A stretch of 59,782 nt of DNA, taken from a virus. The stretch's first letter is position 1, and each line of letters begins with the position of its first letter. Shown here one piece after another: positions 56,544-59,782 of this stretch. The translations under genes were made by a program, and so were the position numbers. The notes beneath the pieces are model-generated. The model saw only the letters and a program-made list of their open reading frames with translations, had not been told where the DNA came from and made no database searches. The stretch covers positions 1 through 59,782 of IMG/VR virus record IMGVR_UViG_3300031999_000023, one strand, 5' to 3'.

Positions 56544-56678
56544 TGACCGAGATGAGATTCGAACTCACGCAGATAAGCTACTACCCTTATCTTGGTACTG
56601 TCACAATCCATTAGTAAGATGAACTATCGTACTCGCCGCCGGCGTAAGCCGGCCGCTCTGCCGCTGAGCTACTCGGCC
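56544..56678 (-). tRNA. Atypical tRNA-like sequence with a 60-70 nt insertion (Val TAC-like)
   Basis: Acceptor GGCCGAG (56678-56672) pairs with CTCGGTC (56551-56545), A73 follows; D-arm GCTC/GAGC; an anticodon-like arm GCCGG-CTTACG-CCGGC with only 6 loop bases (TAC if read canonically); T-arm GTGAG-TTCGAAT-CTCAT. Between the anticodon arm and T-arm lie about 68 bases, including an AGATAAG/CTTATCT hairpin. Total length is 134 nt, far above a normal tRNA. It could be a tRNA with a giant variable region, an inserted element, or a fused tRNA relic. Confidence 0.55.
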
Positions 56679-57595: not shown

Positions 57596-57764
57596 GTGCT
57601 ATTCCTTTTGTAATAAAAGACTCCGGCGAACTGGCCACGCTGGCCGGCGGAAATGTCTCGCCGAAATCTCCGGTATGAATGTTCTCTTGATACCAGATGT
57701 GGGACGTGAAACCGATTACGGTTCCACTGATTAAAGTCAGGATGAACTCGATGACATCTTTCAT
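57588..57764 (-). CDS. 58-residue membrane-anchored peptide
   Basis: MKDVIEFILTLISGTVIGFT..., one transmembrane helix (about 4-23) and a Ser/Pro-rich external part, preceded by AAGAGAGGTAAG. Overlaps the HNH start by 8 bases. It may be the former N-terminal anchor of the 3D-domain enzyme before the HNH insertion; this is a conjecture from gene order. Confidence 0.55.
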   Translation of the reverse strand: MKDVIEFILTLISGTVIGFTSHIWYQENIHTGDFGETFPPASVASSPESFITKGIAHD

Positions 57765-58235: not shown

Positions 58236-58778
58236 TTAGACCCTTTCAAAAACGGTTGCGGGGCACCGTGCGCTGTGAACAACAGTGCCCCGCGTCTTAA
58301 GAGGAGAATGTGCAAAATTCAACAGGGCGAATTCGCCGAAATATTCTTTGGCCGCTGCGTCGTAGGCTTTGGCGGCTTCGACCTCAGATGTGAAAAGGCC
58401 GAGGTATTTATGTCCGATTTGTGTTTGCCACTTGTTACATCTTTTATGCCAACGAACTCCCTTAAATTGAGAAGAATGGTTTTTCTGTAAACTCTTATTT
58501 TGTTGGTTCTGTGAATGAGTACATATTCTTATATTATCTTGTCGATTATCGAGGCCGTTATGATTTTTGTGGTCTGTTTCTCGTTTATCACCTGGTTCCA
58601 AACCAAGAATAACTCGGTGCATCGAAATAGTTGTATAACTACCATTACGAGAAATACCTCGCACTGCGTACCATGTATTGTGGTCTTTTATGGCGTGCCA
58701 TTTGTATTGATTCAACCATTCATAATCGGCGTCATCAACCAGTGCAACCTTGCCCTGTGTCAGTTGTATAGTTTTCAT
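58236..58778 (-). CDS. HNH/AP2 homing-type endonuclease, first gene of the early operon
   Basis: 180 residues: MKTIQLTQGKVALVDDADY..., HNH core SMHRVILGLEPGDKRETDHKNHNGLDNRQDNIRICT, AP2 SSQFKGVRWHKRCNKWQTQIGHKYLGLFTSEVEAAKAYDAA. AAAGGAG precedes the start. The last ~25 residues are read through the hairpin at 58248-58293 and look unrelated to the family end (normally after the LLNF segment). It is the first ORF after the early promoter. Confidence 0.88.
   Translation of the reverse strand: MKTIQLTQGKVALVDDADYEWLNQYKWHAIKDHNTWYAVRGISRNGSYTTISMHRVILGLEPGDKRETDHKNHNGLDNRQDNIRICTHSQNQQNKSLQKNHSSQFKGVRWHKRCNKWQTQIGHKYLGLFTSEVEAAKAYDAAAKEYFGEFALLNFAHSPLKTRGTVVHSARCPATVFERV
58248..58293 (-). promoter_or_regulatory. 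Terminator-like hairpin before the 33-residue gene
   Basis: Perfect 9-bp stem GCGGGGCAC/GTGCCCCGC (58293-58285 with 58266-58258) followed by AACCG and T5 (58252-58248), then GAAAGGG. Overlaps the 3' end of the HNH coding region. Confidence 0.65.
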
Positions 58779-58793
58779 GTTGCGACTCCTTTC

Positions 58794-58847
58794 AAAAAGG
58801 TCGCGGGTCGTCTTGAGGATGTTCTGCGAGCGAGGGTGACGACCCGC
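58794..58847 (-). promoter_or_regulatory. Terminator-like hairpin before the first early gene
   Basis: Perfect 10-bp stem GCGGGTCGTC/GACGACCCGC (58847-58838 with 58812-58803), GACC, T5 (58798-58794), then GAAAGGAG and the HNH start. Together with the upstream stems it makes an attenuator-like leader. Confidence 0.7.
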
Positions 58848-58874
58848 AACTGGAGGAGATTTGATGCAAAATTA

Positions 58875-59009
58875 AAAAGGCCCGTTCTGCCGACCACAAA
58901 TCTGACGCTAATCGAGATGAGCATGGCAAGCAAGGAACGGGCCGGGACAGCAATCAAGGACGGCCTTTTGGTGGAAAGCTTATTTAACAAGTTGGTATTG
59001 ATTAGCGTC
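58875..59009 (-). promoter_or_regulatory. Knotted inverted repeats at the 5' end of the early transcript
   Basis: Two perfect inverted repeats interleave: A, GACGCTAATC (59009-59000) with GATTAGCGTC (58914-58905); B, GGCCCGTTC (58943-58935) with GAACGGGCC (58888-58880) followed by T5 (58879-58875). The order A5'-B5'-A3'-B3' permits either a pseudoknot or two exclusive folds, B being a terminator. A5' starts at the predicted transcription start. Confidence 0.7.
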
Positions 59010-59017
59010 ATGCCTAT

Positions 59018-59046
59018 ATATTACGGCTATAAATATATAGTGTCAA
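59018..59046 (-). promoter_or_regulatory. Major leftward early promoter
   Basis: TTGACA (59046-59041), 17-base spacer, TAATAT (59023-59018), a near-consensus sigma-70 promoter. The spacer contains the dyad CTATA-TATT-TATAG, and a second TATATAGG lies after the -10 box, so a repressor could bind over the promoter. Transcription would start near 59010. Confidence 0.85.
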
Positions 59047-59655: not shown

Positions 59656-59782
59656 TATGGTGGACGTAATGATCATAATCTCGCTTTTAGCATTGGCGGC
59701 AGCAGACCTATGGCAATATCTGGCAAACCATCGATAGGCAGAGACATCAGGGTCGCATCAGGGTCGCATCACCAGACGAAAC
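59656..59782. repeat. Terminal direct repeat, right copy
   Basis: Identical to 1-127; see the left copy. Contains the second copy of the 26-residue ORF (59657-59737) with its ribosome-binding site just outside. Confidence 0.93.

Follow-up and report, generated by a model that had tools for sequence, protein, structure and literature searches.

Several described systems resemble the leader reported here in one respect or another. In pyrBI of enteric bacteria, the terminator is located inside the leader peptide gene (pyrL), before the first gene, and a coupled ribosome prevents its hairpin from forming (PMC10135430, PMC4824070). Attenuators of the trp/ilv kind, e.g. ilvB1 of M. tuberculosis (PMC13236596), combine a uORF, mutually restricting folds and a terminator, and they rely on regulatory codons and on a segment shared by the anti-terminator and the terminator. 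In the mycobacterial leaderless short-ORF attenuators (the polycysteine sORFs of Canestrari 2020, cited in PMC13236596) a leaderless uORF controls the next gene; as far as that citation goes, cysteine codons are sensed, and the systems are not described there as a pseudoknot with a terminator. The RBS hairpins of T4 I-TevI, MobE, SegB and seg43 are RNA structures that limit expression of phage nuclease genes, but they are translational, simple hairpins, with no interleaved terminator or uORF described (PMC2988022). The HK022 put RNAs lie near the start of early phage transcripts, and are ~70-nt pairs of separate stem-loops of shared sequence which bind RNA polymerase (PMC9378689) and have no internal terminator. 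Finally, int-alpA RNA (RF02996), a sequence-conserved hairpin with a downstream complementary segment and a U-rich stretch after the outer stem, is found directly upstream of HNH-AP2 endonuclease genes.

The window, i.e. the whole 59,782-nt stretch of viral DNA analysed here, carries a 235-nt leader on the minus strand, also upstream of an HNH-AP2 gene. This gene is the first of a leftward operon that continues with an AlpA-like HTH protein, another HNH gene, RecE and RecT. The features of the locus are as follows.

59018..59046, minus strand: sigma-70-type promoter, TTGACA-17-TAATAT, 10/12 matches; predicted +1 at 59011
58775..59011, minus strand: uORF of 78 codons (MTLINTNLLNKL...FLKGVAT), from the ORF list
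59000..59010, minus strand: A5', TGACGCTAATC, 5' arm of stem A; 11 bp, perfect; covers uORF codons 1-4
58962..58969, minus strand: D5', AAAAGGCC, which can pair with GGCCTTTT at 58882-58875 (end of B3' and T-run)
58946..58957, minus strand: TTGATTGCTGTC, with which A5' pairs locally instead in the minimum-energy fold
58935..58943, minus strand: B5', GGCCCGTTC, 5' arm of the putative terminator stem; 9 bp, perfect, with 58887-58879
58903..58913, minus strand: A3', 3' arm of stem A, between the B arms; pairs with A5'
58874..58887, minus strand: B3' (58887-58879) and T5 (TTTTT, 58878-58874), an intrinsic-terminator-like end
58800..58850, minus strand: stem C, 13-nt arms, 92% complementary, just upstream of the SD
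58786..58800, minus strand: CCTTTTTGAAAGGAG, with the HNH SD inside a possible CCUUU/AAAGG mini-hairpin (from the sequence)
58236..58778, minus strand: HNH-AP2 endonuclease, 180 aa; phrog_99 1.4e-37; HNH_3; AP2 under the Pfam cut-off
58239..58293, minus strand: second C-type element, stem GCGGGGCAC/GTGCCCCGC plus AACCGTTTTTGAAAGGG; z -3.7; before the next small ORF

An earlier note on this DNA had described the leader elements A, B, T5 and C, and direct reading of the sequence recovered each of them. The order A5', B5', A3', B3'-T5 is present, and thus A and B can form only as mutually exclusive or knotted folds, just as that note had stated. It had also placed A5' near the transcription start, which agrees with a predicted +1 at 59011 and A5' at 59010-59000. 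The promoter hexamers were read directly on the minus strand (TTGACA at 59046-59041, a 17-nt spacer and TAATAT at 59023-59018), with 7 nt between the -10 element and A5', a spacing that is alike in the other modules described below; the promoter match alone is no better than chance (3 sites versus 5.9 expected in shuffles). Stem B is G+C-rich, and the B hairpin alone is predicted to fold at -32.5 kcal/mol (z = -4.5). The segment D (AAAAGGCC) may be an anti-terminator, and its 8-bp match is perhaps due to chance.

The stems themselves are hardly expected in a sequence of this composition. A perfect stem of at least 11 bp occurred in 7 of 2000 dinucleotide shuffles of the 235-nt leader and three stems of at least 9 bp in none of 2000, while an interleaved, T-tailed pair at the observed score was absent from all 3000 shuffles. 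The leader module is also the top-scoring interleaved module across the 59.8-kb window on both strands. One could nevertheless suppose that an ordinary terminator is accompanied by a chance inverted repeat, or that a repressor or the endonuclease binds the A repeat as a DNA operator, as in I-TevI autorepression. The two inverted copies of TGACGCTAATC near +1, present nowhere else in the window at up to 1 mismatch, would fit an operator, and I-TevI provides a precedent (PMC2988022). We consider this pair of explanations distinctly unlikely, as the 0/3000 result speaks against a chance repeat, and neither interleaving with B, nor recurrence with new sequences, nor compensatory changes (both described below) would be expected of a DNA site.

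What the earlier note had left out is the uORF. Its AUG at 59011 coincides with the predicted +1 and overlaps A5', which begins at the T of this ATG, and the frame is open through A3', B, T5 and C, ending in a TGA which overlaps the HNH ATG as ATGA. The other two frames of the leader have 3 and 5 stops, and an ATG uORF with such ends is found in 2.5% of shuffles. A terminator inside a uORF that ends at the gene makes pyrBI the closest known logic, and we thus propose that transcription is attenuated in the leader in a ribosome-gated manner, as in pyrBI, but with a near-leaderless uORF and a new, pseudoknotted topology. We would call this about an even call.

In this scenario, RNA polymerase would start at the predicted +1, i.e. 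at the uORF AUG, and a ribosome would load on this leaderless or nearly leaderless AUG while the polymerase transcribes on. A ribosome trailing the polymerase through the uORF would hold B5' and B3' apart, thus allowing read-through into the endonuclease gene; it would then open stem C, stop at the overlapping ATGA and hand over to the endonuclease start. Should A3' be made before any ribosome has loaded, the 5' end would pair with it to form stem A, with the uORF start codon locked. B3' with the U-run would then form the terminator, either alone or as a pseudoknot with A, and the terminated product would be a short RNA sealed at both ends. With its AUG locked, the terminated RNA, which lacks a stop codon, would also be kept free of ribosomes. 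We infer from this that translation would be the "on" state. It needs to be mentioned that suppression normally fails for a terminator lying less than ~100 bp into an ORF, as the first ribosome is still too far behind (PMC4824070), and the proposed mechanism therefore requires a pause or very fast ribosome loading. Moreover, if the ribosome blocks A rather than B5', translation could favour termination.

Compared with pyrBI, the window has an extra stem A, interleaved with the predicted terminator and holding the uORF start at +1, and the element is phage-borne and repeated. Compared with trp/ilv attenuators, the two interleaved stems have no segment in common, and the window uORF shows no evident run of regulatory codons. 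The proposed device would be a variant of ribosome-mediated attenuation and not a new principle. The earlier note had also raised factor-independent antitermination of the HK022 put type, for which the position at the start of an early-type transcript is suitable. Yet put consists of two separate, similar stem-loops that bind RNA polymerase (PMC9378689), whereas the stems found here are interleaved and of unrelated sequences, the second one is a terminator-like stem inside the element, and other modules share no sequence. As the uORF runs across the leader, a ribosome-dependent rather than a polymerase-binding mechanism is suggested, and a put-like RNA seems to us extremely improbable.

The third perfect 10-bp stem of the earlier note, C, was found where it had been placed, with T5 against the first ribosome-binding site. 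It pairs GCGGGTCGTC at 58847-58838 with 58812-58803 (10 bp, or 13 with one G-U), and it is followed by TTTTT (58798-58794), the SD AAAGGAG (58792-58786) and the HNH ATG at 58778. The region 58856-58770 folds at -26.1 kcal/mol, and in the predicted minimum-energy fold GGAG (58789-58786) pairs with CTCC (58855-58852) around stem C. The twin element at 58239-58293, where the HNH gene ends, carries a fully paired stem of another sequence, with the same CC(G)TTTTTGAAAGG ahead of the next start codon; it falls within a C-terminal extension of the endonuclease past the conserved LNF end. This twin is probably a translational-coupling hairpin, and stem C looks like another one. Control could in principle be translational only, stem C and the SD mini-hairpin closing the HNH start as in the mRNAs of T4 homing endonucleases (PMC2988022), while A and B merely fold the 5' UTR. 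Stem C, its twin and the T4 precedent are in line with this, but most other members of the class lack the C element and still have A, B and the T-run, which leaves this explanation very unlikely.

The same architecture recurs in other phages. We read leaders of HNH-AP2 genes from public contigs (designated L), by eye first and then by script with a fixed rule and a threshold score of at least 40. This score was reached by 22 of 178 distinct HNH-AP2 leaders, with A5'-B5'-A3'-B3'-T-run next to the start codon, compared with 0 of 890 controls (five dinucleotide-shuffled copies of all 178 leaders) and 8 of 1408 regions upstream of other genes on the same contigs. Several of these 8 are no less convincing; they lie ahead of an AAA_24 ATPase gene, an AAA_25/helicase-like gene, another HNH gene and unknown genes, and so the module is not specific to HNH-AP2. 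The whole-contig scan of fetched contigs added one before a TnpB-like transposase gene; in that 105-kb phage contig, the TnpB/OrfB_IS605 gene (L259:4135-5370) has the promoter-pseudoknot-terminator module without a uORF. Some of the phages have several copies of it (three in L021). Stem sequences are unrelated between modules (in L020, for example, A is TGCGATGCAGT and B is CCAGCCAGGG; L062, L075, L095 and L052 provide further examples), and no sequence is shared outside one subclass, called type 1. Since unrelated phages follow this plan with sequences of their own, it has the look of a reusable switch, a control cassette that may be placed before HNH-AP2, other nuclease and some other phage genes.

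The promoter and the uORF belong to this plan as well. A promoter with at least 10/12 matches lies 3-15 nt before A5' in 8 of the 22 HNH-AP2 modules, a set that was not selected for promoters, versus 0.11 expected; the distance from the -10 to A5' is mostly 5-8 nt, which puts A5' at the predicted +1. Among 19 promoter-bearing modules, an ATG/GTG frame from A5' is open through B and the T-run in 15 (3.0 expected, P about 4e-10), and the uORF ends within -12..+8 of the gene start in 11 (2.0 expected). The uORF is absent in Bacteroidetes-like members (L025, L061, L065) and in L259. Between A5' and B5', the Bacteroidetes-like leaders L025, L032 and L235 have in common a AAAGATATTT(T/C)AAC-like sequence, most evident in L025 and L032. 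In the window, the order, the T-run, the promoter spacing and the uORF geometry are those of the class, and the AUG offset (-1 from A5') and the stop (+4) are the same as in L021a. The window is, at the same time, the loosest member: the A5'-B5' distance is 56 nt versus 11-42 in most, and B ends 100 nt before the gene, with stem C inserted, versus 15-25 nt between the end of B3' with its T-run and the start codon in the class.

Type III toxin-antitoxin loci have a pseudoknot RNA and a terminator ahead of a nuclease gene. By analogy, the terminated leader itself might be the product, a stable small RNA sealed by the pseudoknot at both ends and acting in trans or as the RNA partner of the nuclease. 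The topology, a terminator-like stem before a nuclease gene and the location of A5' at the 5' end agree with this idea. We find it doubtful, though, as sequence is conserved only within the type-1 subclass, modules also precede ATPase, helicase-like and unknown genes, and the conserved open frame would be left without explanation.

Compensatory changes could be assessed in the alignable subclass (L020, L180, L021, L095, L272, L306, L316). The type-1 loop pattern was found in 47 stretches, only 5 of which were modules, 2 of them new (L306, L316). In the eight-sequence alignment of this subclass, 98.8% of cells were paired versus 25-38% in slid versions, and 13 of 20 pairs had changes on both sides, the seven-sequence version being similar. 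The covariation score of this subclass, which does not include the window leader, was 0.595 versus 0.245. The uORF peptides align in L180/L306 and in L020/L316, and indels keep the frame (+3/-3, and 10+2 = 12), both of which speak for translation of the uORF.

The computed folding order agrees with the proposed ribosome-gated attenuator, and it also leaves room for a switch of opposite polarity. The best fold once A3' is complete contains A in 17 of 17 modules computed, the window included, and B matches or beats A (within 1 kcal/mol) in 15 of the 17 after B3' has emerged. Stem A might then be an anti-terminator which forms first and topologically delays B, and a ribosome on the uORF start would remove A and let B terminate, so that the gene would be expressed when translation initiation is poor. 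That A is the fold present at completion of A3' in all modules computed, and that A5' coincides with the very place a ribosome would occupy on initiation, are points in its favour. On the other hand, a uORF running through B to the gene start, as in many members, would be unnecessary if only A5' had to be covered, and B is usually as stable as A or more so. We thus regard this polarity as rather unlikely and return to the ribosome-gated attenuator in which translation would permit read-through.

Database searches placed the leader in no described family. No DNA homologues of it were found in phages or plasmids. Rfam gave no match for the window leader at gathering thresholds or at E up to 10, RF02996 included, save a chance sR12 hit (E 5.4), and none for the L020 module. 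Searches of the openly accessible literature yielded no account of such a pseudoknot attenuator in phages. Thus, the part of the earlier note which saw a cis-acting attenuation RNA, possibly of a new class, gains support from the recurring architecture, from the covarying stems of the class and from the absence of Rfam matches, in contrast to its put-like part, which the interleaved stems, the lack of shared sequence and the terminator-like stem inside the element all weaken. Other candidates were discarded: a group I intron or known riboswitch (no Rfam family match), an HDV-like ribozyme (A5'-B5' distance far too long) and the RNA of an RNA-guided nuclease (conserved scaffold absent). int-alpA RNA was seen directly upstream of HNH-AP2 genes at L010:4909-4978, L024:636-706, L028:3911-3979 and L053:3915-3979, with a hairpin loop complementary to a segment just downstream (e.g. 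UCCUGA/UCAGGA), an apparent pseudoknot; L006, L046 and L257 have look-alikes.

Homologues of the HNH-AP2 endonuclease number in the hundreds, and in isolated phages (Bacillus phages Stahl, Slash, 268TH002 and others) the genes are promoterless cassettes inside operons. An initial contig scan with RecE found nothing; in relatives identified via RecE (L015-L018), the leader was either not reached or replaced by a different short leader without HNH there, and queries with the AlpA-like HTH protein and the integrase gave no further leaders. Relatives L018 (6520-6666) and L017 (2440-2592) have a structured leader before the homologue of the window gene at 57764; in L018, an 11-bp stem TCTTTTATCTC/GAGATAAAAGA encloses the RBS, and the window has no such leader. 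As for the record itself, a 125-bp direct terminal repeat (1-125 and 59658-59782) indicates that it is circular or circularly permuted. A tRNA-like segment at 187-236, beside the integrase gene (284-1312) and conserved in L018 (5194-5243), is probably the attachment site. Rfam also calls a 135-nt tRNA at 56544-56678 (minus strand), with no ARAGORN call, which suggests either a remnant or a tRNA carrying a large insert.

Taken beyond the window, we tentatively hypothesize, with somewhat less than even confidence, that many uncultured phages carry an undescribed class of sequence-free RNA switches ahead of nuclease and other genes, in which a promoter is combined with a near-leaderless uORF and with a terminator in an interleaved pseudoknot, several per genome, with the genes transcribed only if ribosomes load in the short time before stem A closes. 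The architecture would be under selection, while the bases of the stems would be free. If this is right, such phages would possess a compact cassette that gauges how ribosomes load within one or two seconds of initiation, with a pseudoknot topology in place of shared segments; topology alone would be conserved, and sequence-based RNA searches would be blind to it. Members could then be sought by a simple rule, namely interleaved stems at +1, a T-run and a uORF ending at the gene start. It would also explain how phages may carry promoter-bearing selfish nuclease genes without over-expressing them.
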